Part shown: positions 8,179 to 56,760 of the stretch, one piece after another
Layout of the letters: every line of letters begins with the position of its first letter
How positions within the stretch are numbered: the first letter of the stretch is position 1
DNA from: an uncultured Acidobacteriota bacterium
GTDB taxonomy: Bacteria > Acidobacteriota > UBA6911 > CAINFC01
DNA length: 62,187 nt
Assembly: GCA_903847975.1 (NCBI GenBank)
Contig: CAINFC010000265.1
Coordinates: 1 to 62,187, forward strand
Direction: 5' to 3'
The notes under the pieces: generated by a model
The model's input: the letters and a program-made list of their open reading frames with translations, nothing else
Told to the model about the DNA's origin: nothing
Database searches by the model: none
Made by a program: the position numbers and the translations under genes

Positions 8179-8222
8179 TGAAAAAGAGCAGGCAGAAATA
8201 ATTGCTTCGATTGCGAAAATGG

Positions 8223-8251: not shown

Positions 8252-8277
8252 GGGGGCACAGGCCGCTGCCTACGTTG

Positions 8278-8306: not shown

Positions 8307-8394
8307 CGCTCCGAAAAATAAAACAGAAGGTCTTTGGGGGGATTCGGAAAAAGCTCATTATGAAATAAGGAAGTTGGCCTTTACGGCGGGCGGC

Positions 8395-8406
8395 ATGCCC
8401 GGGCAT
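8395..8406. promoter_or_regulatory. 12-bp perfect palindrome before M14 start
   Basis: ATGCCCGGGCAT is perfectly self-complementary and ends five bases before the M14 start codon, where a ribosome binding site would normally be. It could be an operator or an RNA stem limiting translation. A chance GC-rich palindrome is also possible. Confidence 0.35.
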
Positions 8407-8411
8407 CCGAC

Positions 8412-19863: not shown

Positions 19864-19892
19864 TTGTGTACATTGGAGCTTCACTGTAAAAT
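19864..19892 (+). promoter_or_regulatory. Promoter TTGTGT-N17-TAAAAT, TonB receptor
   Basis: -35 TTGTGT (19864-19869), 17-bp spacer, -10 TAAAAT (19887-19892). The predicted start near 19899 gives a leader of about 55 bases with an AGGAGGC ribosome site at 19939-19945. Confidence 0.6.
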
Positions 19893-19953
19893 CTGCGTGA
19901 TGTTTTTCCCATGTATGTGCAACTTCTTTTCATCTATCAGGAGGCTAACGCCC

Positions 19954-22900: not shown

Positions 22901-23349
22901 TTAGTGCCGCAACCACTTCCCTCAATACGCCGGGATCCTCCCAGACGGCCGACCTGATCGGAACCATCACCCAGATGGGCGACGTAGGCCCGGGAACCCA
23001 GTTTTATGCCGTAGAGGCTTTCCGCGACCCGAACTTCCAGAGGCCATCGAACGTGTACCGGTTCGGAACCATGGGGCGCAATGCCCTGCGCGGCCCCGGC
23101 TTTCAGAAAGCCGACCTGGCCCTGTTCCGGGATTTCAAGATCACCGAGCGCATGGTGCTGCAGTTCAAAGCGGAAGCCTTCAACTTCACCAACACGCCGC
23201 GCTTTAATAATCCTTCGGCCAACGTCAGCAGCATGACGGTCAATCCGACCACCGGTGCCATCACCAACGTGGGCGGCTTCATGGCCATCACCAGTGCGTT
23301 TGACGGCAGCGAGCGCAGGTTCCGCTTCGGCATGCGCCTGAGCTTCTGA
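19954..23349 (+). CDS. TonB-dependent outer-membrane receptor, Oar-like, with carboxypeptidase-regulatory domain
   Basis: A 1131-residue outer-membrane transporter. It has a signal peptide (1-30), a carboxypeptidase-regulatory-like beta-sandwich (about 33-115, containing GTVEDPSGAVIPGATIALTN), a plug domain (about 120-250) and a long beta barrel ending in an aromatic residue (RRFRFGMRLSF), as outer-membrane insertion requires. This architecture is expanded in Acidobacteriota, where it is thought to import oligosaccharides or peptides with TonB energy. The ATG at 19954 follows an AGGAGGC site; upstream in-frame starts precede the promoter. It is monocistronic, with its own promoter and a GC-rich hairpin after the stop. 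No SusD partner gene is adjacent. Confidence 0.93.
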   Translation: MARRKWMQRLCAFPVFLLLLNFSVQSSSAQVLYGSVVGTVEDPSGAVIPGATIALTNTETGAAREVVADDQGRYTAVNMPAGNYNLVVTAPGFRTTTRSGVTVTINNTTRVNMRLEVGQISEQVTVSGSLATLQTDRADTRTEINSKAVVELPLSAYRNYQTLINLVPGATPAAEQNSMGASPQRALTTNVNGTNRNNNNTRVDGSINVYIWLPHHTLYVPPVESIETVNVSTSSFDAEQGMAGGAAVTVATRSGTNDIHGVGFWYHDNQHLYARPYFYKQSEVKPRLNKSITNIPGGTIGGPIIKNKLFYFFSFERNWLRQNTFTNTSVPPANIRTGDFSAYTGLGTIYDPLTGDANGNGRIAFPNNKIPSNRLSAIWQQIQSLCPLPNQTAADTWGLTNNYFASAATGMTRDNYDVKINYNVTQKLMVWGKYSDMVANVFGEGALGTLVGPALGQNGKADVRIKIPTFGFNLTQSPTFIVDGVFGHTRFKNVALGPDYGKNWGSEVWKIPGTNGGSAFAGDIRYSGMPLISNGFASWGNNSASNPNFYNDRSYTFTNNYTKLFGAHELRWGIDILHHGMNHWQPETANPRGSLSAGGQATVLNGQVVRAIHTYAAGLLDILGSANKSVQFLQMTTREWQEGFYFRDRWQVNRKLTINLGARWEYYPLMSREGRGLERWDPVTNTVTMGGVGNIPKNNGMTTSKKLIAPRIGIAYRWKENTVIRAGYGVTFNPMVLSRPLKGIYPATITSQWVAPTTYGFYGTFTKGIPDVATPDIKTGTLTLPPTVDMGLRSPEAGLIKRGYIQSWNFTVERQLPADLLLSVGYVGNQTVRQFVDRDINAATYFGGGTSSRPLAATQGRLITAYMWNGWANGNYHSLQAAINKNLSKGLFLKGAYTWSKTINMSDEDGWAQLPLTEMPSALDRNRAVAGFDRPHMFVLSWVYDLPFSKGQPLEVSGFAAKILGGWRLNGIYSAYSGTPFTVSAATTSLNTPGSSQTADLIGTITQMGDVGPGTQFYAVEAFRDPNFQRPSNVYRFGTMGRNALRGPGFQKADLALFRDFKITERMVLQFKAEAFNFTNTPRFNNPSANVSSMTVNPTTGAITNVGGFMAITSAFDGSERRFRFGMRLSF

Positions 23350-37188: not shown

Positions 37189-39351
37189 TCAGAGCGTCTG
37201 CCGGATGGCCAGCTCGTAGAAGGCGCCACGGGCCGCCATCAGGGATTCGTAGTTTCCCTCTTCGATGATATGCCCCTGGTCCATGACCACGATGCGGTCA
37301 CAGAGCCGGATAGTCGACAGTCGGTGGGCGATAATCAGCCGCGTGCACGACAGCCGGGAGAGGCTGTCGGCGACGCGCTTTTGGGTGAGGTTGTCCAGGG
37401 CGCTGGTGGCTTCGTCAAAAAGCAGCAGCCCCGGCTTGGCAACAATGGCCCGGGCGATCAGCAGGCGCTGCCGCTGCCCGCCGGAAATTCCGCCGCCGCC
37501 TTCGCTGATCATGGTGTGCATGCCCATGGGCATCGCCTTGATATCCTCTTCGATTCCCGCCAGCCGGGCGGCTTCCCAGGCGTCCTCCAGCGTCTTCCAT
37601 GGGCTGGTCAGGATGATGTTGGTAAAAATGTCCCCCGGAAAAAGCTTGCCGTGCTGCAGGACAACGCCAATGTGACGCCGCAGAGACGGCAGGTCCAGCT
37701 GCTCCAGGTCATGACCGTCATAGTAAATAGCACCGGACTCCGGTTTTTCCATCCCGAGCAGCAGCCGCATCAGCGTAGACTTGCCGCAGCCGGTCTTGCC
37801 GACGATGGCTACATATTCGCCGGAACGGATTTTGAGGCTCAGGTGCTCGAGGATCGCCGGCCCTCCGGTATCGTAGCGGAAGGTCAGATCATTGATCTCA
37901 ATCTGACCGGACAAAGCCTCGACCGCCTTGCGGGAGACGGCGGTTTCCGGTGTTGCATCCAGGAACGGTTGAATCAGCTCCAGGTTCGGCTTGATTTCCG
38001 CCAGGGCCACGGCCATGCCGATAAAGGCCAGAAAAGCCGCGGACATTGCCCCGTAAGCCGTCTGAAACACCATGAAATCGGCGGCGGAGATGCCGCTTCC
38101 AGCAGCCGTCAGGTAAATCCAGACGCTGCCGCCGCCGGTGATGAGGGTCGTCAGGGCCGGCTGAATGCGCAACAACATCGGGGGCGTGTAGCTGAGCTTG
38201 CCCTCTTCCTTGTAGGAGGCAGCCCATTGGGCAAAGGCCCTTTTTTCGGCACCGGCCAGCTTGATCTTCTGGATTCCGGAAAACAGGGAAAAGAGCAATC
38301 CGTTCAGCCGGGCGGAAATTTTGACCCGGCGGCGCGTGATCCCGTAGCGCAAAAACGTGGAGCCTATCGAAACCGCAAGAGAAATCGCCAGCACCGTCAG
38401 GGCGGGCAGAAGCAGGGTGGGGGTAAAGCTCCGGATCTGCACCAGGTAGATCAGGGAAAACAGGGCGGAAAGGAGGCTGGTCAGTGCGACGTTGGAAATC
38501 GTGCCGACCAGCGAGGGAACCACCGCCAGACGGCTGGAAAGGTCGCCGGCGGAACAGTGCTTGAAGAAAAGCGCGGGGAGCGAGAGCATCCGCATGATCA
38601 TCGCCGATTGCAGCGCCAGGCCGATTTTGTGCTGCAGCCGCAGAAGAATTATGCCGCGGGTCATCCCGAATAGGGCGGATCCGAGAGTGACGCCCAGCAG
38701 CAGGGCGGCGACCGGAAGAAGAAGGTTCTGCAGGCCGCTCGGGACCACGGTGTCAAAGAGGATCTTGTTCATGAAAGGCAGAAACAGCCCCAGGACGGAA
38801 ACCAGGGTGCTGGCGCCCAGCACGAAAAGAAAGTCGTACAGGGTGACGCTTTGCAGCATAAAGCGCAGGACGTCGATAAGGCTCAGCCGGTCGGGAGGAA
38901 GGGGCCGGTAGAAACAGAACGCCTCCGGATTCAGATCCTGTGCCGCTTTCCTGTCGATGCGTACCGGCTGACCATTCGGATGGCGGAAAAAATAGCCGAA
39001 GGCCCTTCCCGGCAGGAGGGCCACGACCTGCCCGCTGCGGGTGCTTCCCAGCATCGGGCCAACCGCATTTTTCCACCATTCCCCGCTCAAAACCACGCGC
39101 CGGTGCAGGATCCCGGTGGGTCGGAGATAATGTCCCAGCAGACCGCTTTCCTGGCCGGCCTCCAGCGGCAAGTCGGGAAGGCGCCCGCCCAGGCAGGCGA
39201 CAATTTCGTTCAGAGCGTTCCTGATTTCCGCGGAGGGGCGGTCGGCCATGGGCTTCAGGATGGAAGCCAGCTCCTCGAACGCCTGTTCGAACTGCCGGGT
39301 GTCGTTGTCGCGGCGCGCCTCTATCTGGGCATCAAAAAGATCGATGGTCAC
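37189..39351 (-). CDS. NHLP-type peptide exporter, second ABC permease/ATPase
   Basis: A 720-residue ABC half-transporter of the NHLM/NHLP ABC2 type: an N-terminal soluble domain (about 1-155), six membrane helices (about 165-445) and an ATPase domain with Walker A GKTGCGKST, signature ISGGQRQR and Walker B LLLFDEATSALD. The soluble domain replaces the C39 peptidase of the partner. It should pair with the preceding gene product to move a processed peptide across the inner membrane. Its start overlaps the partner's stop by four bases (ATGA), so the two are made together. It is the last gene of the operon. Confidence 0.9.
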   Translation of the reverse strand: MTIDLFDAQIEARRDNDTRQFEQAFEELASILKPMADRPSAEIRNALNEIVACLGGRLPDLPLEAGQESGLLGHYLRPTGILHRRVVLSGEWWKNAVGPMLGSTRSGQVVALLPGRAFGYFFRHPNGQPVRIDRKAAQDLNPEAFCFYRPLPPDRLSLIDVLRFMLQSVTLYDFLFVLGASTLVSVLGLFLPFMNKILFDTVVPSGLQNLLLPVAALLLGVTLGSALFGMTRGIILLRLQHKIGLALQSAMIMRMLSLPALFFKHCSAGDLSSRLAVVPSLVGTISNVALTSLLSALFSLIYLVQIRSFTPTLLLPALTVLAISLAVSIGSTFLRYGITRRRVKISARLNGLLFSLFSGIQKIKLAGAEKRAFAQWAASYKEEGKLSYTPPMLLRIQPALTTLITGGGSVWIYLTAAGSGISAADFMVFQTAYGAMSAAFLAFIGMAVALAEIKPNLELIQPFLDATPETAVSRKAVEALSGQIEINDLTFRYDTGGPAILEHLSLKIRSGEYVAIVGKTGCGKSTLMRLLLGMEKPESGAIYYDGHDLEQLDLPSLRRHIGVVLQHGKLFPGDIFTNIILTSPWKTLEDAWEAARLAGIEEDIKAMPMGMHTMISEGGGGISGGQRQRLLIARAIVAKPGLLLFDEATSALDNLTQKRVADSLSRLSCTRLIIAHRLSTIRLCDRIVVMDQGHIIEEGNYESLMAARGAFYELAIRQTL

Positions 39352-41507
39352 GACTGGATATCCGTGGAAATCAGCTGGGTGTATTTTCCGCCAAGGGCAA
39401 GCAGTTCCTGGTGCGTGCCGCGCTCCACGGCGACTCCCCGGTCGAGCACCACGATCTGATCGCAGTCGCGAACCGCCGAGAGGCGGTGGGCGATAACGAT
39501 GCAGGTGGCTCCCAGGTTGCGAATGTTGCGCATGACCATTTCTTCCGTTTTGGCGTCCAGGGCGCTGGTGGCCTCATCCAGGATGATCAGCGTCGGTTCC
39601 TGGGCCAGAACGCGGGCAATTTCGAAGCGCTGCCGCTGCCCTCCGGAAAAATTCTTTCCTCCCTCCAGGATGCGGTGGTGAAAGCCGTCCGGACGGGAGA
39701 TGATGGTCTGGTGAATGTCCGCATCCCGGGCGGCAAGGATCAGCACAAAGTCCTCGATCGAGGAGTCCCACATGCGGATATTGTTGGCGATGGTATCCTC
39801 GAAAAGGGTGATCTCCTGATCGACCATGGCCACCGAGCTCTTGTAGGTATACTCGTCGATTTCCGCGCGCTTGCGGCCATCGAATAAGATTTCCCCGCTC
39901 CAGGCCGGATAGAGCCCGGTAATGAGCTTGGCCAGGGTGGACTTCCCGCTGCCGCTACCGCCCACCAGGGCCACGGAGGAACCGGCGGGGATCGACAGGG
40001 AAAAGTTCCGCAGCAGCGGGTCGGACAGCCGGCTGTACCCGAAAGTTAATTCCCTCAGCTCCAGGGCTCCCTTCAGCTTGCCTCGTTGCAGGCCTGCGTC
40101 GGGTGCCTCATCCCGCTGCAAACCGGCATCGGTGGGATAATTCATGACATCTTCCACCCGCTCCATTTCGGCACGCATGGTGATGAAGCTTTGCCCGACT
40201 TCCAGCAGTTGTTTCACCGGGTTCAGCAGGGCGCTGAGAAAACCCTGAAAGGCCATCAGCATGCCGATGGTGAATTCACCGCGCAGGATGAGGGAGGTGC
40301 CGGCGATCAGAATGGCGATTCCCGCCATCTGCTGCAGGAGCGAAGGCAGGGAACCGACATACTGCCAGAAGGAGGCAATGCGTACCTGGGCGTTGTGGTA
40401 GGCGGCATAATAGCCGGCCCAGCGCTCGAAGAAGCCTTCCTCGGCGCCGCCCGCCTTGATGGTTTCGATCATGTGAATCCCGGTCACGGTGAAGCCGGCC
40501 AGTTTCCCGGCACTGGCCTGCGAGAGGCGGCTCAAGTCCACCTGTTTTCGGGCAATGGTCCGACCGGCGATGAGGTTGAGCAGGACGGAGGATACGCCGA
40601 TGACGGTCAGCAGGACGCTGTAGTGCCACATGATCGCCAGATAAAAAGCGAGAAGGCAGACGTTCATGAAAATCGGCGCCAGCTGACGGATCAGCGTTCC
40701 GGCAATGGACTGGTTCATGATCTGGCGCGAAACGATGTCGCCGATAAATCGCTGGGAGAAAAATTCCAGAGGCAGGCGCAGCACGTGCCAGAAGTATTCG
40801 GTGTTGGCCGTCACGGCAAAACGGCCCTCGATTTTCAGCCAGTAAATTCCTTCCATCACTCCCACGGAAAACTGAAAGAGAACCGCGGCGGAAAGGACGG
40901 CTACCAGCGGCCAGAGCCATTCCGGATTGCTTTCCGAAAGGATGTTGTCCAGAAACACCCGGGAGAAAAGAGGCATGGCCAGGCCGACGACGGACGACAG
41001 GATGCCCGTCAGGACGACGAAAAGGAAAGGCACGAGTGTGCCCCGCAGCCGTTGGAAGGCAAACGCCGCAACGCTCCTGGGCTTTCCCTCCGGGCGGAAG
41101 TTCTCGTCCTTTTCGAAGCGCAGAACGATGCCCGTGAAGGCTTTGTTGAATTCTTCCTGGTCGACTTCGATCCGGCCGCGGGCCGGATCGTTGATCACGG
41201 CTTGATTTTTTCGAAATCCGCAGAAAACGACGAAGTGGTTGAAGTTCCAGTGCAGGATTGCCGGGGCGTTTAACGATTGCAGGCCCGAAGGCTCCATGCG
41301 GTGACCGCTGGCCTTAAGCTGGTAGGAGCGCGCCGCTTTTATAATGTTCCGGGCGTTGGAGCCGTCCCGGGAAACGCCGCAGTCGGCGCGTACCTGCTCC
41401 AGAGGCAGCCATTTGCCGTAGAAAGCCAGAACCATGCACAGCGAGGCGGCCCCGCATTCCAGGGCTTCCATCTGCATGACCACCGGAACCTTGAAAATTC
41501 TGTTCAT
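39348..41507 (-). CDS. NHLP-type peptide exporter, C39 peptidase/permease/ATPase
   Basis: A 719-residue ABC exporter of the NHLM/NHLP ABC1 type. The C39 peptidase domain (1-135) is intact: Q12 for the oxyanion hole, C18 in ECGAASL, H91 in NHFVVF and D107 in NDPARG. Six membrane helices follow (about 155-440), then an ATPase with GGSGSGKST, FSGGQRQRFE and LIILDEATSALD. Such proteins cut the leader from a ribosomally made peptide after a double-glycine-like site and export the core. An intact active site implies that a substrate exists somewhere in the genome. It begins 34 bp after the adaptor stop. Confidence 0.93.
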   Translation of the reverse strand: MNRIFKVPVVMQMEALECGAASLCMVLAFYGKWLPLEQVRADCGVSRDGSNARNIIKAARSYQLKASGHRMEPSGLQSLNAPAILHWNFNHFVVFCGFRKNQAVINDPARGRIEVDQEEFNKAFTGIVLRFEKDENFRPEGKPRSVAAFAFQRLRGTLVPFLFVVLTGILSSVVGLAMPLFSRVFLDNILSESNPEWLWPLVAVLSAAVLFQFSVGVMEGIYWLKIEGRFAVTANTEYFWHVLRLPLEFFSQRFIGDIVSRQIMNQSIAGTLIRQLAPIFMNVCLLAFYLAIMWHYSVLLTVIGVSSVLLNLIAGRTIARKQVDLSRLSQASAGKLAGFTVTGIHMIETIKAGGAEEGFFERWAGYYAAYHNAQVRIASFWQYVGSLPSLLQQMAGIAILIAGTSLILRGEFTIGMLMAFQGFLSALLNPVKQLLEVGQSFITMRAEMERVEDVMNYPTDAGLQRDEAPDAGLQRGKLKGALELRELTFGYSRLSDPLLRNFSLSIPAGSSVALVGGSGSGKSTLAKLITGLYPAWSGEILFDGRKRAEIDEYTYKSSVAMVDQEITLFEDTIANNIRMWDSSIEDFVLILAARDADIHQTIISRPDGFHHRILEGGKNFSGGQRQRFEIARVLAQEPTLIILDEATSALDAKTEEMVMRNIRNLGATCIVIAHRLSAVRDCDQIVVLDRGVAVERGTHQELLALGGKYTQLISTDIQS

Positions 41508-41541: not shown

Positions 41542-42126
41542 TCAGCGGTTGAAAACCAGCTCGAAAGGCCTGCGCTCCTGGGTGATGATCTGCAGGTTGC
41601 ATTCCGAGCCGCTGGTGATCTGCAGGGACTCTCCTTTTTTGTTGGACCAATGAAGGCCTTGCGGACCGCTCTCCAGCTGAATTACGATTTCAACAGCCGG
41701 GCCCTCCCTGGGAAGCAGTTCGTGCAGGTAGGCTTCCGCGGGGAAACGCTGGCGCAGCTGATCGACGGAAAGAGGCTTTTCGCCGATCTGCACAATTTTC
41801 CCGTGGATGTAGCCGAACTGGTTGCGCGGGGCATAGTCCGGCGATACCTGGGCCGCCATGCCGGGACGCAGCCTTTTGGCAGTTTTCAAACGCAGATAGC
41901 CGTACACCGTGTTTGCGGGTCCTTCCCGGGAATAGGCGAATCCGCTCATCTGGACCGATTCGGGAACGGTGCCCCAGAGCACCCAAATGACCAGGGCAAT
42001 CAGAATTAAAAAATGGCCCAGAAGAACCACCCAGACTTTCGGATGGGTCACTTTCAGGTATTCGTTCAGCTGGTCCGGGCTGGAAATTCTTTCCAGCGAG
42101 CTTTTTCGAAAAATGGATGCGTCCAT
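41542..42126 (-). CDS. Short HlyD-like adaptor of the NHLP exporter
   Basis: A 194-residue adaptor with one membrane helix (about 29-53, rich in L, I and V) and a periplasmic domain. The C-terminal part follows the NHLM secretion-protein pattern: a segment ending LRPGMAAQVSP, then QFGYIHGKIVQIGEKPLS, LHWSNKKGESLQITSG and ERRPFELVF. Family members are about 400 residues and carry a lipoyl/biotinyl-like domain and a coiled-coil hairpin between the membrane helix and this region; here both are missing without a frame break. ATG 42126 fits the downstream position of the promoter; the upstream extension is not protein-like. First gene of the exporter operon. Confidence 0.85.
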   Translation of the reverse strand: MDASIFRKSSLERISSPDQLNEYLKVTHPKVWVVLLGHFLILIALVIWVLWGTVPESVQMSGFAYSREGPANTVYGYLRLKTAKRLRPGMAAQVSPDYAPRNQFGYIHGKIVQIGEKPLSVDQLRQRFPAEAYLHELLPREGPAVEIVIQLESGPQGLHWSNKKGESLQITSGSECNLQIITQERRPFELVFNR

Positions 42127-42385: not shown

Positions 42386-42775
42386 ATGGATCCCTATCTG
42401 CTGTACCTGCTGGTGGCCTTATTTGGAGCAATCGCCGCCATCCTCCTTTTTTTATCAGGAAGCCTGGTTCTGCACAAAAGATATGGCGCCACGCCGCCAC
42501 CGGATGCCATCCGCTCCCTGGGAGAGGAAATCCTCCAACATCCGGTCCGTGCGGATCTGACCGGATTTGCACTTCATCAGGAAAAACAGGAAAGGCGCTG
42601 CTATCGCCGGTTTTATTTTAGCCCGGATGGAATATGGGACTTTTACCTGGAAATGGATCACGATGTGGCCATCGCCTTCCGGGCCCTCCTTCGGCATAAG
42701 CACTGTTTTCTCATGAACACAGTCTATGAGGGGCATTGCCAACCGCCAAGAATTCTTTTGCCGACCGGTCTATAG
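42386..42775 (+). CDS. Small membrane-anchored protein, unknown
   Basis: A 129-residue protein I do not recognise. Residues 4-28 form a hydrophobic helix followed by HKRY, an N-terminal anchor with the rest probably cytoplasmic. The remainder is mixed alpha/beta with basic and aromatic residues (RRCYRRFYF, WDFYLEMDHD) and two late cysteines. A GGAGG site lies about 11 bases before the ATG. It is divergent from the NHLP exporter, and its 3' end overlaps the promoter and -35 region of the M14 gene, so it is not cotranscribed with that gene by design. It could be an accessory of the exporter; no leader-peptide motif is visible, so it is not an obvious exporter substrate. Confidence 0.6.
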   Translation: MDPYLLYLLVALFGAIAAILLFLSGSLVLHKRYGATPPPDAIRSLGEEILQHPVRADLTGFALHQEKQERRCYRRFYFSPDGIWDFYLEMDHDVAIAFRALLRHKHCFLMNTVYEGHCQPPRILLPTGL

Positions 42776-46701: not shown

Positions 46702-48237
46702 TCAGGGCTTTTGGGCGCCGGAAGGTTTTGGCGCCTGCTTTTTCAAAAACAGGACCAGGTCCATGTTTTTCAGGTCCTCTTCGCTCGGACTGCCGCCGTA
46801 CTGCTTCCAGAACAGCTTCTTGAGCGGGTTGACCTTCGGTCCCCTGGCGTTCTCATTCACCATAAGAGGGCGCGCGGATGCCCACCAGCGGTCGAAGCCG
46901 GAGGAAAGGGAAGCAACCACTTCCGGGTGAGAGGCGGCCACATCCGTCGTTTCCCCATAGTCGGCCTGCAGGTCAAACAGCTGCCAGTGGGGGGTCCGTC
47001 CCCCATCGATGGAAACCAGCTGCCACCGCTGGTTGCGGATAGCAGCGCCGCGGTATTTCCACTCCTCGGGGGAAGTGCCGAGCGGCCAGCGGCCCACATG
47101 AGTCACAAAGGTGCGATCCGTCCAGTCGGCGTCCGGGTTCGAAAGCAGGGGAACCAGGCTGCGGCCTTCAATTTGTTTTTTCTCACGCTTCCCAAGCCGT
47201 ACTCCGGCCAGGTCGGCCAGGGTGGGGAAGAAGTCGATATGCCCGGCCAGTCTGCGGACATCGGTGGGAGACAGATGCCCGGGCCAACGCCAGAAAGAGG
47301 AAGCCCGGGTGCCTCCAAGCCAGGGAGTGCCTTTCTGCCCACGCATGCCGGCGTTAAATATTTTCACTCCACCCGTACCTCCGTTGTCGTTCATAAAAAC
47401 GACCAGGGTGTCCTGTTCCAGTCCGAGCTCACTCAGACGAGTGAGCAGGCGGCCGATATTGTCGTCCAGATTGGCGAGCATGCCAAAATATTTGGCGGTT
47501 AGCGCATCGCTTACCTTGCCGGCATAGCGCGCTTCGTCCTCTGCACGGACCTGGTAGGGAGCGTGAGGGACGTTGGTGGAGATCCAGGCCAGAAAAGGAG
47601 TCCCCTTTTTCTGCTCTCCGATCCAGCGCATGGCCTGATCGAAGAACACGTCGGTGCAATATCCTTCCGTGCGCTGGAATTTGCCGTTATGAAGAAGGAC
47701 CGGAGAAAAATAGGTGTTTCCCGGGGCATCCCCGCAGCTGCCCGGATAGGTCTGCCCGATACCCCCGCAGCCGTGGATGAACATTTCCGCAAAGCCGCGG
47801 CGGCTGGGCCAGTAATCCGGGGCATCCCCGAGATGCCACTTGCCGAAAATGCCGGTGCGGTACCCGGCGGAGCGGAGCGCATCGGCCAGAGTGGAAGCCC
47901 GCAGGGAAAGGCGTTCGCGCTCCAGGATGGTGTGGGTAATGCCGTTTTTGAACTCATGGCGGCCGGTCAGCAGGGCGGAACGGGTCGGCGCACAGGTCGG
48001 GCTTACGTGGAAGTCGGTGAAACGGACCGATTCCCGGTGGAGCCGATCCAGGTTGGGAGTCCGGAGGACAGGATTCCCGTGGGCGGAAATATCGCCGTAG
48101 CCCTGGTCATCGGTGAGAACAAAGACAATATTAGGGCGGGAGCCGGAAAGGGGGGCAGGCGCCGGGAAAGTATTATCCAGGCAGGCTGCGAGGACAACGA
48201 GAAGCGAACCGATGTAAAAAAGCATGGCCTTGTTCAA
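46702..48237 (-). CDS. S1-family sulfatase, probable lipoprotein
   Basis: A formylglycine-type sulfatase of about 511 residues that should remove sulfate esters from glycans. The maturation motif is CAPTRSALLTGR with the modified cysteine at C82, after SRPNIVFVLTDDQGYGD, whose aspartates bind calcium. The N-terminal hydrophobic segment ends LVVLAAC, a lipobox, suggesting a membrane-anchored lipoprotein. The start is probably the TTG at 48237, because AGGAGG at 48249-48244 is six bases away; an ATG at 48264 (nine codons longer) is the alternative. It follows the sensor kinase stop by 30 bp, or by 3 bp from the longer start, so the two are cotranscribed. No maturase gene is in the window. Confidence 0.88.
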   Translation of the reverse strand: MNKAMLFYIGSLLVVLAACLDNTFPAPAPLSGSRPNIVFVLTDDQGYGDISAHGNPVLRTPNLDRLHRESVRFTDFHVSPTCAPTRSALLTGRHEFKNGITHTILERERLSLRASTLADALRSAGYRTGIFGKWHLGDAPDYWPSRRGFAEMFIHGCGGIGQTYPGSCGDAPGNTYFSPVLLHNGKFQRTEGYCTDVFFDQAMRWIGEQKKGTPFLAWISTNVPHAPYQVRAEDEARYAGKVSDALTAKYFGMLANLDDNIGRLLTRLSELGLEQDTLVVFMNDNGGTGGVKIFNAGMRGQKGTPWLGGTRASSFWRWPGHLSPTDVRRLAGHIDFFPTLADLAGVRLGKREKKQIEGRSLVPLLSNPDADWTDRTFVTHVGRWPLGTSPEEWKYRGAAIRNQRWQLVSIDGGRTPHWQLFDLQADYGETTDVAASHPEVVASLSSGFDRWWASARPLMVNENARGPKVNPLKKLFWKQYGGSPSEEDLKNMDLVLFLKKQAPKPSGAQKP

Positions 48238-48243
48238 TTTTCT

Positions 48244-48249
48244 CCTCCT
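48244..48249 (-). promoter_or_regulatory. AGGAGG ribosome site inside the longer sulfatase frame
   Basis: A perfect AGGAGG six bases before TTG 48237. It lies within the reading frame that would start at ATG 48264, so it argues for the TTG start. Confidence 0.5.
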
Positions 48250-48267
48250 GATCCCTATGCTCATTTT

Positions 48268-51200
48268 TTAGGAAGTTTCCAGGGCTTCACGGATTTTAGA
48301 TGCCAGTTCCCTGAGGGTGAAAGGCTTCTGGATGAAGTGTACTCCCGGTTCCAGTACCCCGTGATGGGCAATCACATCCGCCGGGTATCCCGACATGAAC
48401 AGCCGCTTGAGGCCCGGAAAACGGTTCAACAGGTTCTGCGCCAGATCATGACCGTTCATTTCCGGCATCACCACGTCGGTGACCAGCAGATCCAATTTCC
48501 CGCGGTAGGACTCGGCCAGGTGCAAAGCCTCCCGTGGGGAGGCGCAGGTGAGCACCGCATAACCCTGTCGCTCGAGGAGCAGGGCGGTCATTTTCAGGTT
48601 GGCCGGTTCATCTTCCACCAGGAGGATGGTTTCAAGGCCTTTGGCGGAGATCCCGCCAGGCCTGGCCTCGCATTCTGGCGATTCCGCGGTCCCGGAATAG
48701 CGGGGCAGGTAGATCGTGAAGCGGCTGCCGGAACCCGGCTCGCTGGAGACACGAATCACTCCCTCGTTCTGTTTGACGATTCCGTACACCGTGGCCAGCC
48801 CGAGCCCGGTCCCTTTGCCCAATTCCTTGGTGGTGAAAAAAGGTTCGAAAATGCTGGCCAGGACCTTTGGATCCATTCCGCACCCGTTGTCGGAAACCGC
48901 CATAAAAACATAGGGCCCGGCAGCCAGTCCCTCATTTTCGGAGCCGAATTTTTCATCGAAAACCATGGATCCGGTTTCGAGGGTGATCCGGCCGATCCCG
49001 GCAATGGCATCGCGGGCATTGACGATGAGGTTGGCCAGGATCTGGTCGATCTGCGAGGGGTCTATTCTTACGGGCAGCGGCCGGTTGGCCGGGAGCCACG
49101 CCAGCTCAATGTCCTCGCCGATCATGCGGCGCAGCATCTTGAACATTCCTTCCAGGGTTTCGTTTAAATCGAGCACCCGCGGCAGAACGGTTTGTTTGCG
49201 GGCAAAAGCCAGCAGCTGCCGGGTAATTTCCGCGGAGCGCTCCGCCGCCCGGCGAATCTCCTGCAGGTCGCTGTAAATGGCCTGGTCCGGTCCGGCCCGG
49301 TCCAGGGCCATCTCCGCGTGACCGAGGATGACTCCCAGCATATTGTTGAAGTCATGAGCGACTCCACCGGCCAGCCGTCCCACCGATTCCATCCTTTGGG
49401 CCTGGGTCAGCTGAGCCTGCAGTTTGGAATGCTCTTCCTCCGAGCGCTTGCGCTCGGTGATGTCCGGGAATACGGCGTAGGCGGCGATTCGCTCTCCGGC
49501 CTGATTGTAAATGGGCGAGGCGCTCACCAACTCCCAGCGCCGGTTTCCCCGCTTGGTAACGACGTAATACTCGCGGTTGTGGGTACATTCGCCGCGGGCC
49601 GCGCGGGCCAGGGGCATTTCTTCCAGCTTCTGCTGTCGGCCGGTGGCATCGTAATCCTGCCAGGTCTGAGGGAAGGCAAAAAGAGGCTGCCCGATATGCG
49701 AAGGTTCGTCAGCCACATCCAGAAATTCCAGGCATGCCGCGTTGGCGTAGCGCAGCACGGCATCGGGCAGGCTGATGAGCACCATGGGGATGGGAGTCTG
49801 GGCAAAAGCCGCATCCACCATGGCTTTGGCGTTGGCCAGGCTCAGTTCCGTCATTTGGCGTTTGGTGATGTCGCGGGTTACGCCGACAAATCCGCTGAGC
49901 CGGCCGTTCTTTTCGTGGATGGAGGAGGTGGAAAACTCAACCCACATTTCGCGGCCGTCCCGGTGAAAAACACGAATGGCGGCGGTGGCGCTGCGGTCTT
50001 CCTGGCCCTGAGAAAGTCCGGCGAACAGTTCCAGGACTGACGATAAATAGTCCGGATGCACGAACCGGCCCCAGTCCAGGTCGTTCCATTCTTCCAGGGG
50101 ATAGCCGAACAGTTTTTCGGTCGAAGGGGAGAGGTAGGTAAACCGTAGATCCGGACCCATGGCCCATATGGAATCGGAAGTGTTGTCGGCAATCAGCCGA
50201 TAGCGCTCCTCGCTCTCCCGTAACGTTTTCCTGGCTTGTCTGCTCTCGGTGATATCCTGTACCATGCCGATGGAGCAGCTCACCTTCCCGGTTTCATCCC
50301 TTTCATGTATGCAGCGCTCGTAGACATGCCGCACTTCGCCGGTATCCTTGCGGACAATCCGGTGTTCCACCTCGTAAGATTGGATTCCTTCCTGCAGAGA
50401 ATTGCGATAGGCGGCATGGACCGCCTCCCGGTCATCCGGGTGGACGGAAGCGAGAAAGGCTTCGTAGGTGGCGGCAAATTCCTGTGGCCGCTGCCCGAAA
50501 ATCCGATAGACCTCATCCGACCAGGCGAGCTGATTGGCGGAAAGATCCAGCTTCCAGCTGCCGATGTGGGCGATCTGCTGGGAGCGGGCCAGAAGAGCTT
50601 CGCTTTCGTGAAGCTGCCGGGTCCGGGCTTCCAGGCGCTTTTCAACCAGCAGAAGCGCACGCTCCCGGCGCGACCGGGCGCACAGCTCCAGGAGATAGGC
50701 CGGCTGAAATGGCTTGCGCAGGTAGGCGGCTGCGCCGCGCTTCATCCAATCCAGGGCCAGATCGGCGCTGGGATCGGTGGTCATCATGATGCACACGCCA
50801 GCGGGCATCTCGGCGTGCAGGCGGTCCAGAAGGGCGTCGCCGGAACCGTCCGGCAGGTGATAATCGATAATCAGTACTTCATAGGAGGTTTCGTCGATCT
50901 GCCGGTTGGCATCCGCCAGGGTCAGGGCCGTATCGGCGAGGTATCCGGCCGCGGAAAAGGCTTTGCGGAGGAGCTCGGAAAGAGTGGGACTGTCTTCTAC
51001 AATCAGAGTGCGCAAGGGAATCGGCTTTCGCTCTCCCCGGAGGATTTCTTTAATCTTTTCGACAAAAAAAGGGCCGTCCAGCGGGCATGGGAAAAAGGCA
51101 TCGGCTCCCAGATCCGCGGTAATACGCTCCGGGGAGTCGCCGGAAAAAGTGGCGGATACAACGAAGATGGGGACGGAGTTGAATCGGGGATACTCCGGGG

Positions 51201-51420
51201 AGCGCAGCAGCCGGCAGAACCGCCAGCCGTCGATGCCGGGCATATTCAGGTCGGTGATCACCAGGGCCGGCGAGGGATGGTGGGGAGCGTCATGCAGGGC
51301 GCTCTCCGCGCTGGAATAGATCCGTGGTTGGAGTCCCGCCTGGCGGATCAGTGGGGCCAGAAGAGCTAGCTGGGTGGCCGAATCGTTGACCACAACGGCG
51401 TGTAAGCAAGAATCGTGCAT
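48268..51420 (-). CDS. Multi-sensor hybrid kinase: REC-REC-PAS3-HK-REC
   Basis: A soluble hybrid histidine kinase of 1050 residues. Order: two receivers (about 5-125 with VITDLNMPG; 135-255 with LIIDYHLPDG), three PAS domains (about 280-400, 410-525, 540-660), a HisKA domain with VAHDFNNMLG, an ATPase domain with SDNGCGMDP and GTGLGLATVYG, and a terminal receiver (LVTDVVMPEMNGHD). ATG 51420 begins the first receiver and leaves room for a leader; an in-frame ATG at 51468 would lie only four bases past the -10. It sits between two sulfatase genes on the same strand, with the downstream one almost abutting, which suggests sensing tied to sulfated-glycan use. Confidence 0.85.
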   Translation of the reverse strand: MHDSCLHAVVVNDSATQLALLAPLIRQAGLQPRIYSSAESALHDAPHHPSPALVITDLNMPGIDGWRFCRLLRSPEYPRFNSVPIFVVSATFSGDSPERITADLGADAFFPCPLDGPFFVEKIKEILRGERKPIPLRTLIVEDSPTLSELLRKAFSAAGYLADTALTLADANRQIDETSYEVLIIDYHLPDGSGDALLDRLHAEMPAGVCIMMTTDPSADLALDWMKRGAAAYLRKPFQPAYLLELCARSRRERALLLVEKRLEARTRQLHESEALLARSQQIAHIGSWKLDLSANQLAWSDEVYRIFGQRPQEFAATYEAFLASVHPDDREAVHAAYRNSLQEGIQSYEVEHRIVRKDTGEVRHVYERCIHERDETGKVSCSIGMVQDITESRQARKTLRESEERYRLIADNTSDSIWAMGPDLRFTYLSPSTEKLFGYPLEEWNDLDWGRFVHPDYLSSVLELFAGLSQGQEDRSATAAIRVFHRDGREMWVEFSTSSIHEKNGRLSGFVGVTRDITKRQMTELSLANAKAMVDAAFAQTPIPMVLISLPDAVLRYANAACLEFLDVADEPSHIGQPLFAFPQTWQDYDATGRQQKLEEMPLARAARGECTHNREYYVVTKRGNRRWELVSASPIYNQAGERIAAYAVFPDITERKRSEEEHSKLQAQLTQAQRMESVGRLAGGVAHDFNNMLGVILGHAEMALDRAGPDQAIYSDLQEIRRAAERSAEITRQLLAFARKQTVLPRVLDLNETLEGMFKMLRRMIGEDIELAWLPANRPLPVRIDPSQIDQILANLIVNARDAIAGIGRITLETGSMVFDEKFGSENEGLAAGPYVFMAVSDNGCGMDPKVLASIFEPFFTTKELGKGTGLGLATVYGIVKQNEGVIRVSSEPGSGSRFTIYLPRYSGTAESPECEARPGGISAKGLETILLVEDEPANLKMTALLLERQGYAVLTCASPREALHLAESYRGKLDLLVTDVVMPEMNGHDLAQNLLNRFPGLKRLFMSGYPADVIAHHGVLEPGVHFIQKPFTLRELASKIREALETS

Positions 51421-51472
51421 TTTCGAACCTGTTGCTACCCCAGGAAACGACGATGAATCTGTTTCCATTTCG

Positions 51473-51502
51473 ATTTTAGGCGGTAAGTAGAAGGGCTGTC
51501 AA
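51473..51502 (-). promoter_or_regulatory. Promoter TTGACA-N18-TAAAAT, sensor kinase/sulfatase
   Basis: Minus strand -35 TTGACA (51502-51497), 18-bp spacer, -10 TAAAAT (51478-51473). Transcription should begin at about 51466-51468, leaving a leader of about 46 bases to ATG 51420, or none if ATG 51468 is used. Confidence 0.7.
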
Positions 51503-51636
51503 GCAGCGAGTCGGGCGGTTCCGTGAAATTGGAGTACGGGACTATGCTTCCTCCGCACCCTGTTTATGCGCTTCCGGGGGATCGGGGGCCGCGGGGGCCG
51601 TGCGTCGGCAGAATTCGTCCCGATCCGCAGCTAGTT

Positions 51637-53046
51637 TCATGGATGGGCCACCGCTTTCCGGGGCGAATACCAGCGGGCGGTGACTTCGGTGAACCAGCGC
51701 TCGTATTGCTGCTTCATTTTCAGAACGATGTCGGGATGTGCGCCGGAGAGGTCCTTGGCCTCGCCGGGATCGGCGGCGATGTCGTAAAGCTCGTAGCGGG
51801 GCGAGCCTTCGATGCTGCGCTCGCCGCGGCCCTGCAGCCGGCACAACTCGGCATAACGGTCGCGGATGTGCTTCTGGTTCGCTGCGTCCATCCCCACCGG
51901 CTGAACCAGCTTCCACGTTTCGGTCAGCACGCTGAATGCGTGGCCGCGGCGCGGTTGCTGTCCGCTGTCCCATTGGAAGAACAGGGTGCGATCCGGCCAG
52001 CGTGCCGACGGGGAGCGCAGCAGCGGCAGCACGCTGCGTCCGTCCAGCTTTCTGCCGCCCGGTTTGGAAATTCCGCACACGTCCAGGATGGTCGGCATGA
52101 TGTCGATATGGGCGGCCAGACGCGTCACCGAGGCCGGGCTTCGGAATCCGGCCGGCCAGCGCATGAAGCAGGGGACGCGGATTCCGTTTTCATACGGCGT
52201 TCCTTTTAAGCCATGAAGGCCGGCCATGTGACGGTCCACGGGCTTGGAGCTGGAGCAGGGCCCGTTGTCGGAGGTGAAGATCAGCAGCGTGTTCTCCTCG
52301 AGACCCAGCTCCTTCAGCACATTTCGAACCCGGCCGAAGTTGTCATCCACGCTGCGGATCATGCCGTAAATTTTCTGGGTACTGTCCGTAAGCCCGAGCG
52401 CATCGAAATCCGCGGCCAGTGCCGGGGCGACTTGCAGCGGCGCGTGAATCAAATTGGCCGGGAGGTAGACGAAGAACGGCCGGGAGCGGTTCTCGCGGAT
52501 GAACCGGATGGCGGCGTCGGTAAAAAGGTCCATGCAATACCCGTCCGGCTGCACCGCAACGCCGTTGTGCAGCAGCTCCGGTTGGAAGTACTGACGCATG
52601 GCTGCGCCGCGAAACGTAAGGGATTCGTTGAATCCTTGGGCGTTGGGGCAGTGCTGGTCATCGTCGCCAAGGTGCCATTTGCCGAACAGACCGGTGGCGT
52701 AGCCGGCGGCCTTCAGCACCTCGGCCACGGTTACCTCCAGCGGATCCATGACGGTGGCCTGGCCGTAGACATCGCACACGCCGGTGCGGAAGCTGTAGCG
52801 GCCGGTCATCATCGAAGCGCGCGTCGGGGAACAGACCGGGCTGACGTGAAAGTTCCTGAATTCCACGGCCTCGCGGGCAAATGAATCCAGGTGGGGCGCC
52901 TTGACATACCGGTTGCCGTGGCAGGCCAGGTCGCCGTAGCCGAGATCATCGGCCAGGAACAGTACGACGTTGGGCCGTGGGGACATTGCCAGGGACGGAG
53001 GCGAAAGAAAAAAGCAAAAGCACAGAATGGCCAGGTATTTTTTCAT
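51637..53046 (-). CDS. Secreted S1-family arylsulfatase-like enzyme
   Basis: A 469-residue sulfatase with a signal peptide (1-20). It has PNVVLFLADDLGYGD for metal binding, the formylglycine motif CSPTRASMMTGR at C72, the GKWHLGD motif and a late SDNGP. The CXPXR form allows conversion by FGE or an anaerobic maturase, neither of which is in the window. It should desulfate sugars outside the cytoplasm. A TATAAT (53068-53063) lies 16 bases before the ATG with no ribosome site between, so the leader would be only about 10 bases. It is divergent from the DUF5009 gene and lies 168 bp upstream of the sensor kinase start codon region. Confidence 0.93.
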   Translation of the reverse strand: MKKYLAILCFCFFLSPPSLAMSPRPNVVLFLADDLGYGDLACHGNRYVKAPHLDSFAREAVEFRNFHVSPVCSPTRASMMTGRYSFRTGVCDVYGQATVMDPLEVTVAEVLKAAGYATGLFGKWHLGDDDQHCPNAQGFNESLTFRGAAMRQYFQPELLHNGVAVQPDGYCMDLFTDAAIRFIRENRSRPFFVYLPANLIHAPLQVAPALAADFDALGLTDSTQKIYGMIRSVDDNFGRVRNVLKELGLEENTLLIFTSDNGPCSSSKPVDRHMAGLHGLKGTPYENGIRVPCFMRWPAGFRSPASVTRLAAHIDIMPTILDVCGISKPGGRKLDGRSVLPLLRSPSARWPDRTLFFQWDSGQQPRRGHAFSVLTETWKLVQPVGMDAANQKHIRDRYAELCRLQGRGERSIEGSPRYELYDIAADPGEAKDLSGAHPDIVLKMKQQYERWFTEVTARWYSPRKAVAHP

Positions 53047-53062
53047 GATGAGTATTCGTTCG

Positions 53063-53068
53063 ATTATA
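53063..53068 (-). promoter_or_regulatory. TATAAT -10 element, arylsulfatase
   Basis: Perfect TATAAT 16 bases upstream of the sulfatase ATG on the minus strand. The -35 position is GC-rich and poor. Confidence 0.35.
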
Positions 53069-53174
53069 CATCAATCATCGTGGCAGGGAGCAGAAGAGAG
53101 CCATGGCGGGAACAACCAGGCCCGGCAGCGTGGCATTGCAATCCGGATTTATGGGTGTGAAAACGAAGACAAGA

Positions 53175-53180
53175 TACAAT
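53175..53180 (+). promoter_or_regulatory. TACAAT -10 element, DUF5009 operon
   Basis: TACAAT 27 bases before the DUF5009 ATG, with an AAGGA ribosome site between. No clear -35 at 16-18 bp. It faces away from the sulfatase -10, so the intergenic region is a divergent control region. Confidence 0.35.
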
Positions 53181-53207
53181 TCAATCATCAAAATTAAGGA
53201 TGGCCCC

Positions 53208-54443
53208 ATGTCACAACCGGAAATTCCATACGATTCTTCGCGCCTCCAATCCCTTGACATCATGCGCGGGCTGACCATCCTGGTCATGCTGTTTGTCAAC
53301 GACGTCGCGAGCGTGGCCGGGGCGCCCGGCTGGATGAAACATGTGTCTCCGTCGACGGCCGACGGCATGACCTTTGTGGACGTGATCTTCCCCGCTTTTC
53401 TTTTCCTAGTGGGGATGGCCCTGCCCATGGCGCTCGAGCGCCGATTCGAACGGGGTGAATCGACGGCCTCGGTCGCCGGCCACATATTGCTCCGCACCGG
53501 CAGCCTCCTGATCATCGGCGTGCTGATGGTGAACACCGAAAACATATCCGAACGCGGAATCCTTCCGCCTGCGGTCTGGCAGCTGCTCCTGTACGCCGGC
53601 GTGTGCCTGATCTGGATCACCCCGCCGAAAAACCCCCGTTGGAGTTCCGCCTGGCGGCGCGCGGCCGGAGGGGCGCTTCTTGTGGCCCTCGTCCTGGTGT
53701 ATCGGGGGGAACCGGATCAGATCGGCATCCGGACCCAATGGTGGGGAATCATCGGGCTCATCGGCTGGGCCTACGCGGTCACGGCCTTCCTGTTTCTGGC
53801 GATGAGAAAGAATGCGCTCGGATTTGCCGGCGCGGCCGTCCTGCTCTACTGCGTGTACTTTGCGGACGCAGGCGGGTTCTTCCATTTTCTCAGGGGGACG
53901 GTGGGGCACTGGATCCGCATCGGATCCACGCTCGGTTCCCACGCCGCAATCACTGCCTCCGGAGCGCTCCTGGGGCTGACTCTTCTGCGGCCCGCCCGGC
54001 CCCACGGGGCGCGCATCCGTTCGGCGTTGTTGTTTGCCCTGGTCCTGGCGTGCGCGGCCCTGCTGCTGCATTCCATGAACGGCGTGCACCGGGCCTTCAT
54101 TTACAACAAAAACGCGGCCACGCCGCCCTGGTGCCTGCTGAGTTCCGCATGGACCGCGGGGTTGTTCGCGGCGGTCTACTGGCTCGTCGACGCCAAGGGG
54201 TGGGGTCCGCTCCTGGCTGTCCTGGGTTCGGCGGGCCAGAACGCGCTCCTGGCTTTCATTCTGGGGCCGATCGCTTACGCCATCTTCGACCTGGTGCCGA
54301 AACTGTCGGGAGGCACCCATCCCTGGTGGGGCTGGCTCGGCGGGAATACGGCAGTCGGCATCGTACGTTCCGTCCTGTTTGCCTTTGCCGCCACCGGCCT
54401 GACCGCCTGGCTGCAGAGCCGCGGCAAAGCTTTGAGGGTATGA
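53208..54443 (+). CDS. DUF5009/HGSNAT-like multi-spanning membrane protein
   Basis: A 411-residue inner-membrane protein with about ten hydrophobic helices, starting SSRLQSLDIMRGLTILVMLFVND. This opening is shared by the DUF5009 family and heparan-alpha-glucosaminide N-acetyltransferase (HGSNAT), which moves an acetyl group across the membrane to terminal glucosamine during heparan sulfate breakdown. Related bacterial proteins (NagX type) occur in amino-sugar operons. ATG 53208 was chosen for the AAGGA site; the 35 upstream codons cover the promoter. Its stop overlaps a possible start of the HepC-like lyase gene, so the two are coupled. Acetyl transfer is inferred from family and context. Confidence 0.82.
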   Translation: MSQPEIPYDSSRLQSLDIMRGLTILVMLFVNDVASVAGAPGWMKHVSPSTADGMTFVDVIFPAFLFLVGMALPMALERRFERGESTASVAGHILLRTGSLLIIGVLMVNTENISERGILPPAVWQLLLYAGVCLIWITPPKNPRWSSAWRRAAGGALLVALVLVYRGEPDQIGIRTQWWGIIGLIGWAYAVTAFLFLAMRKNALGFAGAAVLLYCVYFADAGGFFHFLRGTVGHWIRIGSTLGSHAAITASGALLGLTLLRPARPHGARIRSALLFALVLACAALLLHSMNGVHRAFIYNKNAATPPWCLLSSAWTAGLFAAVYWLVDAKGWGPLLAVLGSAGQNALLAFILGPIAYAIFDLVPKLSGGTHPWWGWLGGNTAVGIVRSVLFAFAATGLTAWLQSRGKALRV

Positions 54444-54445
54444 TC

Positions 54446-56431
54446 ATGCATAGATCTGCGATGCACGAATACTTTATAAAGGCATTTTTTCTGATTACTC
54501 TTGCTGGCGGCGCGTCCTTGGATTTTGGCAGAGCGCAGACCGGTGATTCTGTGTCCGATTGCCAGAAACTGATATCTCGGCTCAACCTGGAAGCCAATGG
54601 ATTGGAAGCCGTAAGTTCATCCGGGGCGAACCCGGAAAAAGCAGCCTCGGAGCTCCTGAAATATTTCCGGGCCCGAACGCACGTTAAACATTTCATCGAC
54701 AGGAAAGAGCGTTCGGCAAGTTTGAACCATTTCGCCAGCCGGAGGGATCTGGAGCTGGCCGACAACGCCCTGAAACATGTTTTCATCGGCCAGAGTGCCT
54801 ATCCCCCCTATTTCTGTGGTGAAGATATCAACTGGGGGTTGCGTCCGGTTCCGGATGATGAGTGGGTTTGGCAACTCAACCGGATGAGTTTTTGGGAAGA
54901 CCTGGCCAAAGCGTACTGGCATACGGGGGATGAAAAATATGCGCAGGAATGGTGCTATCAACTTACCGACTGGGTCAGAAAAAACCCCCGCGACAGGCAG
55001 CACGATTACGCCTGGCGATCCATTGAGGCAGGGATACGGGGGCATAACTGGACGGGATTGTTTCAATATTTTCTTGACGCAGAATCATTTAAGCCCAAGG
55101 TTCTGGTGACTTTCCTGAACAGCTGTTTTGATCATGCGGAATTCCTGATGACCGTCTACCGCAGCAGGAGCAACTGGGGACTGATGGAAGCGGAAGGGAT
55201 GGCCTTCCTGGCCCTGACATTTCCTGAGTTCAGGGAAGCAGAAAAGTGGATGAGGGAGGCATTCAGAAGATTGAACCATGAAATTAGTTTGCAGGTATAC
55301 CCGGACGGGCACCAGCGGGAACTGGCCCTCGGCTACCACATGGGCTGCATCCACTGGTTTCTTCGCACTTATGAACTGGCCAGGCTGAATGGAAAGGAAC
55401 AGGCTTTTCCGCAATCCTATTTGCAGACGATTGAAAAAATGTGTGAGGTGCCCATGAAACTTTGTCTGCCGGATGGGACCCACGGTCAGTTTGGCGATGA
55501 CTGGGCAGGTTCTCCGGGACAACATAACGGGCAGTTTCTGGAATGGTCCAGGAAATTCAAGCGTCCCGATTTTCTTTTTATGGCGACCGATGGAAAGGAA
55601 GGGCAGGAGCCGTCCTCCAGGGCATTTGCCCTGCCCGAAAGCGGATTTTACTCGATGCGAAGCAGCTGGGGCCAGCAGGCCGTCTGCCTGGTTCTGAAGT
55701 GCGGGCCGGACGGCGGAGGGCATTGCCAGCCGGACAATGGAACTTTCGTCCTGTACGCCGGAGGTCGGAATTTAATGCCCGACGGTGGCAGCTATATTTA
55801 CAGCGGCGATCCGGAGGGCCGCCGTTGGTTCAGGCAATCAAAGGTACATCAGACACTTACCTTAAATGGGGAAAATACAAAATATGCCCCGAAACTACTG
55901 TTGTGGCAGCCGGGTAAGGATTTGAATATATTGGTCACAGAGAATCAAAGCTATCCTGACCTGGCTCACCGGAGAGCGGTTCTCTTTGTCGACAACCGGT
56001 ATTTTATCCTGGTGGATGAAGCGATTGGCAAGGCTGTTGGAGATGTGGAGCTTCATTTCCAGCTTGCTCCGGGAGAATCAATAATGGACCGGAAGAAACT
56101 GTTTGTCCGGTCCGATTTCAGGGAAGGCTGGAATGTTCTGATTCAACCCCTGACCCGGTCAAGGGTCAAGCTGGAACCGGAGGAAGGTCAGGTCTCCTTT
56201 CGATATACCAGGAAAGAACCCAGACCCGCTTTCCGATATGGTTTAAAAAAGGGTTCCGAACCGGTTCGGTTCCTAACACTGGTTGCGCCTTACCTGGGGA
56301 AAGCGCCGGATATTAAGGTCCATATACGGCAGGATAAAGGAATTGGGTCATCGGAGATGAAGCTGGAAATTACGGAAAATGGGAAGAAAAGACGGGTCGG
56401 GTTCCGGCATGATCTTAACGCATCCAACTGA
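54446..56431 (+). CDS. Secreted HepC-like heparinase (heparin-sulfate-lyase family)
   Basis: A 661-residue lyase with a hydrophobic N terminus (about 8-30). The alpha-helical toroid domain contains WQLNRMSFWEDLAKAYW and NWGLMEAEGMAFLAL, and the beta-sandwich half contains FYSMRSSWG, GGGHCQPDNGTFVLYAGGR and MPDGGSYIYSGDPEGR, characteristic of heparinase III/HepC (PL12-like) lyases. It should cleave heparan-like uronate-glucosamine polymers by beta-elimination. ATG 54446 is seven bases after GAGGG; ATG 54440, overlapping the upstream stop, is the alternative. The gene is clearly richer in A and T than its neighbours (for example at 55840-56100), which suggests acquisition from a lower-GC donor such as a Bacteroidota. 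Confidence 0.88.
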   Translation: MHRSAMHEYFIKAFFLITLAGGASLDFGRAQTGDSVSDCQKLISRLNLEANGLEAVSSSGANPEKAASELLKYFRARTHVKHFIDRKERSASLNHFASRRDLELADNALKHVFIGQSAYPPYFCGEDINWGLRPVPDDEWVWQLNRMSFWEDLAKAYWHTGDEKYAQEWCYQLTDWVRKNPRDRQHDYAWRSIEAGIRGHNWTGLFQYFLDAESFKPKVLVTFLNSCFDHAEFLMTVYRSRSNWGLMEAEGMAFLALTFPEFREAEKWMREAFRRLNHEISLQVYPDGHQRELALGYHMGCIHWFLRTYELARLNGKEQAFPQSYLQTIEKMCEVPMKLCLPDGTHGQFGDDWAGSPGQHNGQFLEWSRKFKRPDFLFMATDGKEGQEPSSRAFALPESGFYSMRSSWGQQAVCLVLKCGPDGGGHCQPDNGTFVLYAGGRNLMPDGGSYIYSGDPEGRRWFRQSKVHQTLTLNGENTKYAPKLLLWQPGKDLNILVTENQSYPDLAHRRAVLFVDNRYFILVDEAIGKAVGDVELHFQLAPGESIMDRKKLFVRSDFREGWNVLIQPLTRSRVKLEPEEGQVSFRYTRKEPRPAFRYGLKKGSEPVRFLTLVAPYLGKAPDIKVHIRQDKGIGSSEMKLEITENGKKRRVGFRHDLNASN

Positions 56432-56760
56432 AAAACCACTTTTTCCATACTATTGCTTTGGATTACCGTTTATCGGCGGCAGCCTTCCAGCCATTGCACC
56501 CCGAACGCTGTTGCCTCCCCTGCGGGATCGCCGCGGAAAACAGCAAAACATTATTGCGAGAGCTTCCAGCCCTGCGCGTGAGAAGGCTCTGCGGTTCAAA
56601 CCGGCCGGACCACCTCCGGCATTTCCCTGAGGGATTCCATTCGATGCAAGAGCACACTATTCATCCAACCCTTACCTGTTCCGGGCTCCGTCCGGATCGT
56701 CCGGATGTTGAAGCCCCCGGGTTGGTCCTTCCTCTTCCCAAAATCCGGAAGGTCTTCCAG
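56432..56760. other. 329-bp gap before rhamnosidase gene
   Basis: The reading frame of the downstream enzyme stays open through this gap, but the translation (many C, R and H, no hydrophobic start) is not protein-like. I see no convincing promoter, hairpin or repeat. Confidence 0.5.

Follow-up and report, generated by a model that had tools for sequence, protein, structure and literature searches.

The window, as the whole stretch of 62,187 nucleotides analysed here is called, contains on its minus strand a three-gene operon, in which a short adaptor gene is followed after a 34-bp gap by a gene encoding an ABC protein with a C39 peptidase (ABC1) and then by a second ABC gene (ABC2), whose GTG start overlaps the ABC1 stop by 4 bp (Table 1). 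The adaptor frame runs uninterrupted from its ATG at 42126 to 41542, in agreement with the sequence-only reading, which had described the gene as intact and leading the operon; the plus-strand reading of 41542-42126 is meaningless. The same three-gene set defines the NHLM cluster TIGR03794/TIGR03796/TIGR03797 (Haft 2010, PMC2887384), which serves NHLP and Nif11-type precursors, and both ABC proteins of the window score above the respective cut-offs. The window operon differs from that cluster in its adaptor, which scores below the threshold of TIGR03794 and has no residues for profile positions from about 52 to 294, and in the short form of its ABC2.

Table 1. Features of the short-adaptor operon, in window coordinates
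Feature	Position	Strand	Basis
Short NHLM adaptor, 194 aa (stop included)	41542..42126	-	ORF, TIGR03794 matches, alignment
Adaptor cytoplasmic N-terminus, residues 1-30 (SIFRKSSLERISSP-QLNEY-KVTHPK)	42037..42126	-	Conserved in short and full-length adaptors
Adaptor single transmembrane helix, residues 31-51	41974..42036	-	Hydropathy maximum 31-49; model helix 29-51
Adaptor junction, residues 69/70	41917..41922 (41919/41920)	-	27-sequence alignment; profile against HlyD 8DCK
Adaptor putative beta-barrel region, residues 52-194	41545..41973	-	VIA-align fold comparison; low-confidence model
ABC1: C39 peptidase, permease and ATPase	39348..41507	-	TIGR03796, 904 bits (cut-off 853)
ABC1 C39 peptidase domain, C18/H91/D107 with Q12, LahT type	41100..41507	-	186 bits to 6MPZ
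ABC2: permease and ATPase, no peptidase, short form of 720 aa	37189..39351	-	TIGR03797, 713 bits (cut-off 709)

Walker A, signature, Walker B and H-loop motifs are present in both ABC proteins. In ABC1, Q12 accompanies an intact catalytic triad, and the C39 domain is 65% identical to that of LahT (6MPZ); among the NHLM ABC proteins found in its genome, it is the only one with a full peptidase match. A library of defence systems returned nothing from the operon other than a generic ATPase match in the ABC proteins. ABC2 measures about 630-750 aa in loci of the window type, whose two ABC proteins are the most similar to those of the window and which include all the compact ones, versus at least about 840 aa in the others, with the exception of L117 (738 aa). 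Full-length systems (e.g., L063:3639-4508, minus strand) carry an ABC2 N-terminal extension of about 260-290 aa that is absent from the compact class and has no Pfam match and no PDB sequence match.

The neighbours of the operon are unrelated to export and include GH106, M14 peptidase and sulfatase genes. At 46702-59712, sulfatases, heparinase II/III and a GH106 rhamnosidase cluster with a hybrid sensor kinase, a stretch that looks like a region for the degradation of sulfated polysaccharides. Divergent from the adaptor, an ORF of 129 aa (42386-42775, plus strand) has an N-terminal hydrophobic stretch and no Pfam match.

Domain composition of the adaptor

The adaptor aligns to TIGR03794 in two pieces, an N-terminal one equivalent to profile positions 1-51 and a second one in which residues 73-192 correspond to positions 295-416 of 421, and both the N-terminal anchor and the C-terminal domain of the family are present. 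The total score, 112 bits, is below the family cut-off of 156.2, so that automatic naming would miss the protein; its relative at L020 reaches 95 bits. An alignment of 27 sequences puts the gap precisely between residues 69 and 70. The insert at this junction is 0 aa in the window, 177-216 aa in the other Acidobacteria aligned, 208-245 aa in full-length Bacillota adaptors and 78-116 aa in those Bacillota adaptors that have only the lipoyl domain. Since the profile of this alignment matches HlyD of 8DCK over the anchor, the lipoyl halves, the helices and the start of the barrel, the missing piece corresponds to the first lipoyl half, the hairpin and the second lipoyl half. A lipoyl (barrel-sandwich) domain is likewise absent from the Pfam matches of the adaptor and from its part of the alignment, and no alpha-helical hairpin is found at the junction. 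The sequence-only reading, which had proposed the lack of both modules and about 200 additional residues in relatives, is thereby borne out (about 180-245 aa in full-length relatives). It also had the C-terminal segment begin at LRPGMAAQVSP; this segment is indeed kept, but the domain to which it belongs starts about 17 residues earlier. The lost domains were also sought as a split gene elsewhere, a candidate that was rejected: the sole strong match in the genome to profile positions 59-290 is an ordinary YbhG-type adaptor at C59, which has its own ABC and TolC genes beside it.

Two AF2 runs on three sequences gave poor models of the adaptor, with a mean pLDDT of 55 and 57, which were used via fold comparison alone. 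For the model with a pLDDT of 55, the best 14 of 995 chains in VIA-align are all adaptors (Z 8.3-10.7), including EmrA (10.7), BesA (9.5), MacA (9.2) and ZneB, and unrelated chains do not exceed 7.9. Judging from this low-confidence model, the approximately 140 residues that follow the membrane helix resemble adaptor beta-barrels. The closest structural comparisons are instructive in what they share and what they do not. HlyD of the HlyB/HlyD system (8DCK, 7SGR) has the N-terminal membrane helix and the beta-barrel in common with the window adaptor, but carries in addition a lipoyl domain and a long hairpin that reaches TolC. BesA of Borrelia (4KKS) also lacks the alpha-hairpin; however, it keeps the lipoyl domain, acts in an RND pump and has an outer-membrane factor as its partner. 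Hairpin-less adaptors had been expected in Gram-positives yet not found there, and BesA is the named hairpin-less case (PMC4446572, PMC8277102). Although adaptors without a hairpin are therefore known, the form that lacks both hairpin and lipoyl domain is apparently new, a priority that is not certain, given that most subscription papers lay outside the search.

Relatives and ancestry of the compact loci

Matches were found in 25 of the 396 genomes of the window's phylum, and the short adaptor in two of them, those of the window and of G234 (RPQK01000290), a member of the same class with 51% identity; the remaining family-type matches are full-length. The same architecture occurs in a MAG of Syntrophothermus sp. 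UBA1445 (Bacillota), where the locus is split over two contigs, and the window adaptor is 51-52% identical to both relatives. A scan of GTDB contigs with strict patterns matched these two loci, and viral contigs contained no relative of the system. Both loci carry an ABC protein with a C39 peptidase (TIGR03796) together with a short-form one (TIGR03797). The same deletion in relatives, which had been named as a check, is thus found in a second Acidobacterial MAG and in the Syntrophothermus MAG, and no homologue with the same flanks that still holds the missing domains, the finding that would have spoken for a recent deletion or an assembly error, appears among the nearest relatives; the next nearest, G705 and G817, keep the lipoyl domain and lack the hairpin.

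Within Bacillota (398 genomes of the phylum and 63 of the class), the adaptors form a series from full-length, through forms with a lipoyl domain but no long hairpin, to forms with neither. The insert at the junction is 208-245 aa in the full-length forms, 78-124 aa in those that keep the lipoyl domain and 0 to 23 aa in G396, G411, G530 and G713, and G642 is likewise devoid of both domains; the adaptors of G411, G530, G713 and G642 are still shorter than that of the window, with a further reduced barrel region. In G837, adaptor and ABC1 are joined in a single frame of 1224 aa (L167:3964-7635, plus strand), by gene fusion or loss of a stop.

The compact loci form one clade, supported at 100/100, in the ABC1 tree as well as in the ABC2 tree. 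In the ABC1 tree, the larger one, the window and G234 are sisters (100/99) placed beside Syntrophothermus (100/99), followed by G705 and G817. The ABC2 tree places the two Acidobacteria next to a group made up of G396, G705 and G817 (98/94), all inside the same clade of Bacillota. As G705 and G817 belong to the compact clade and have a lipoyl domain, the history of this domain within the clade involves either two or more losses or a single loss followed by regain. For ABC1, grouping every sampled Acidobacterial system in a single clade is rejected (AU p=1.4e-5, dlnL 455), and the window ABC1 is 69% identical to that of Syntrophothermus versus 45% to that of a full-length system of its own class. 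These data suggest that the compact operon probably moved from Bacillota (Clostridia-type) into Acidobacteria, with a direction that rests on nesting and a midpoint root in trees that are unrooted and have no outgroup. The composition of the operon is suggestive of transfer but weakly so: its GC content is 0.599 versus 0.597 for the window, and its 4-mer correlation, 0.847, is the lowest of the pieces compared (0.855-0.943 for the others).

Candidate peptide substrates

Five precursors in the window's genome exceed the family cut-offs, two of Nif11 type and three of NHLP type (C93, C152 and C22). One of the former, at C225, lies directly upstream of a LanM gene (615 bits; L062:9172-9474 and 5911-9159, minus strand) and is an orphan class II lanthipeptide locus. 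The other, at C294 (L061:3076-14622), is embedded among six genes for B12-binding radical SAM proteins, whose best family scores are far below the cut-offs. The precursor at C22 (L145:1423-1740, minus strand) ends in TGGGSTGMCCC, without the usual GG end of the leader, and adjoins a condensation-domain-like protein. LahT of Lachnospiraceae C6A11 (6MPZ) removes Nif11 and nitrile-hydratase-type leaders and relies on positions -12, -7 and -4 ahead of the double glycine being hydrophobic (PMC6363468); this pattern is whole in C225, C93 and C152, and C294 has Met at -12. The core peptides of four of the precursors measure 11-24 residues. LahT thus shares with the window system the triad, the leader motif and both leader types, although in its case the peptidase domain alone was studied and no short adaptor is reported for the lah cluster in PMC6363468.

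No precursor or maturase adjoins the operon in the window, and none of the small ORFs at 42.1-48.3 kb has a Nif11 or NHLP leader. From this absence, we infer a service in trans, and the processing of the dispersed precursors by the window operon would be the simplest reading. In G234 and G705, Nif11-type precursors are found within the exporter locus; in G234, two whose cores are rich in Cys and Gly (L059:2762-3181 and 7713-8117, plus strand) enclose the exporter and a SPASM radical SAM gene. A precursor of G817 (L166:4902-5468, minus strand) has an apparent tandem pair of NHLP leaders before one core and lies beside a LanM-like gene.

Proposed function and competing explanations

The reading that we favour, with a probability of roughly 0.64, is that the operon encodes a compact one-membrane NHLM exporter, acquired from Bacillota, whose adaptor consists of the transporter-binding half only. 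ABC1 would recognise Nif11- and NHLP-type leader peptides and cut after the double glycine, and would make up, together with ABC2, the pump by which the core peptide crosses the cytoplasmic membrane. The adaptor would retain the half that serves this pump, namely the conserved N-terminal stretch in the cytoplasm, a single membrane helix and the beta-barrel next to the membrane, having lost the lipoyl and hairpin modules that elsewhere stack into a channel and meet the outer-membrane factor. As it has counterparts of the N-terminal parts of HlyD but none of the channel-forming ones, it is proposed to be a pump subunit without a bridging role, most likely acting in assembly, in coupling or as an exit collar. 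In HlyD itself, transport requires the N-terminal region, which may function in assembly with HlyB and in its stimulation (PMC4446572). The design seems to have arisen in Bacillota, where no contact with TolC is needed, and to have moved as a whole operon into this Acidobacterial lineage. Single-membrane Bacillota such as Lachnospiraceae need nothing beyond the pump. The mature peptide would probably be released into the periplasm and, being small, leave by an independent route or act there. A broader statement, that an unnamed class of one-membrane NHLM exporters with adaptors of anchor plus beta-barrel was brought into a diderm to release peptides into the periplasm with no outer-membrane partner, is offered tentatively, at somewhat less than even odds.

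The outer-membrane step is where the favoured reading meets its most serious competitor. The host is diderm, as indicated by an OMP barrel gene in the window (19864-23349) and a TolC-family gene at C59, and a secreted product must therefore have some route across the outer membrane. A profile derived from several outer-membrane efflux proteins (OEPs) finds no OEP gene in the 62-kb window, and none adjoins the compact relatives; within Acidobacteria, an adjacent OEP accompanies 18 of the 21 full-length-adaptor loci and neither of the two compact ones, although the G234 contig is only 8.7 kb long. These observations agree with the earlier proposal that a hairpin-less adaptor could not reach a TolC-like channel, so that export may end in the periplasm or use another partner; the proposal is nonetheless plausible only, as BesA, also without a hairpin, pairs with BesC, an outer-membrane partner with a disrupted gate (PMC4446572), and in four loci of Bacillota (L118, L121, L122 and L124), whose hosts are probably diderm members of that phylum, short-hairpin lipoyl adaptors of 313-335 aa occur with an adjacent OEP. 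A short hairpin with a lipoyl domain thus does not exclude an OEP. By the same token, the window adaptor could feed an OEP encoded elsewhere, either in the manner of BesA or with the YbhG-type adaptor at C59 providing the hairpin, and both membranes would then be crossed. However, BesA and the four Bacillota adaptors all retain the lipoyl domain that is missing here, the combined loss of lipoyl domain and hairpin is never found with an adjacent OEP in the loci examined, and the lack of linkage in both compact Acidobacterial loci also argues against this route, which we consider unlikely.

The remaining explanations concern the adaptor and the history of the operon. PCAT1 (4RY2), another C39-ABC exporter that cuts at a double glycine and exports across one membrane, differs from the window system in needing neither ABC2 nor adaptor, and PCAT1-type relatives have been solved without one; together with the even shorter adaptors of G713 and G642, this gives some ground for a decaying, vestigial protein beside an ABC pair that works alone. 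Such decay is improbable in view of the identity of 51-52% that is maintained over the full length between phyla, a dN/dS near 0.2 for a single pair of closely related short adaptors, and the observation that, in those loci that are complete, the adaptor gene is in frame and opens the operon. The same data, with the architecture conserved in two further genomes of two phyla, the operon kept and the ABC motifs intact, support the functional minimal adaptor that had been suggested from sequence. It is rather doubtful that the compact system has a long history in Acidobacteria and reached Bacillota from there, or that both phyla kept it from a common ancestor: the trees are unrooted and the Acidobacterial sampling is 396 genomes only, which leaves room for such a history, but just 2 of these 396 genomes contain the system, both trees place them with Bacillota, and it is in Bacillota alone that the adaptor is seen to shrink stepwise. 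A recent deletion or an assembly error in the window's genome is rejected as scarcely credible, the same junction being common to three independent assemblies whose partner ABC proteins fall in the same distinct clade.

Adaptors of the short type are hidden from annotation by the TIGR03794 cut-off, and the reductive series in Bacillota reaches the loss of the lipoyl domain as well, in relatives of a system whose peptidase, LahT, has been studied biochemically. As the bridge is lost while the remainder is conserved, the role of the adaptor in the pump would be separable from its role as a bridge, and the presence of the system in a two-membrane host makes the route of a small modified peptide out of the cell directly testable.
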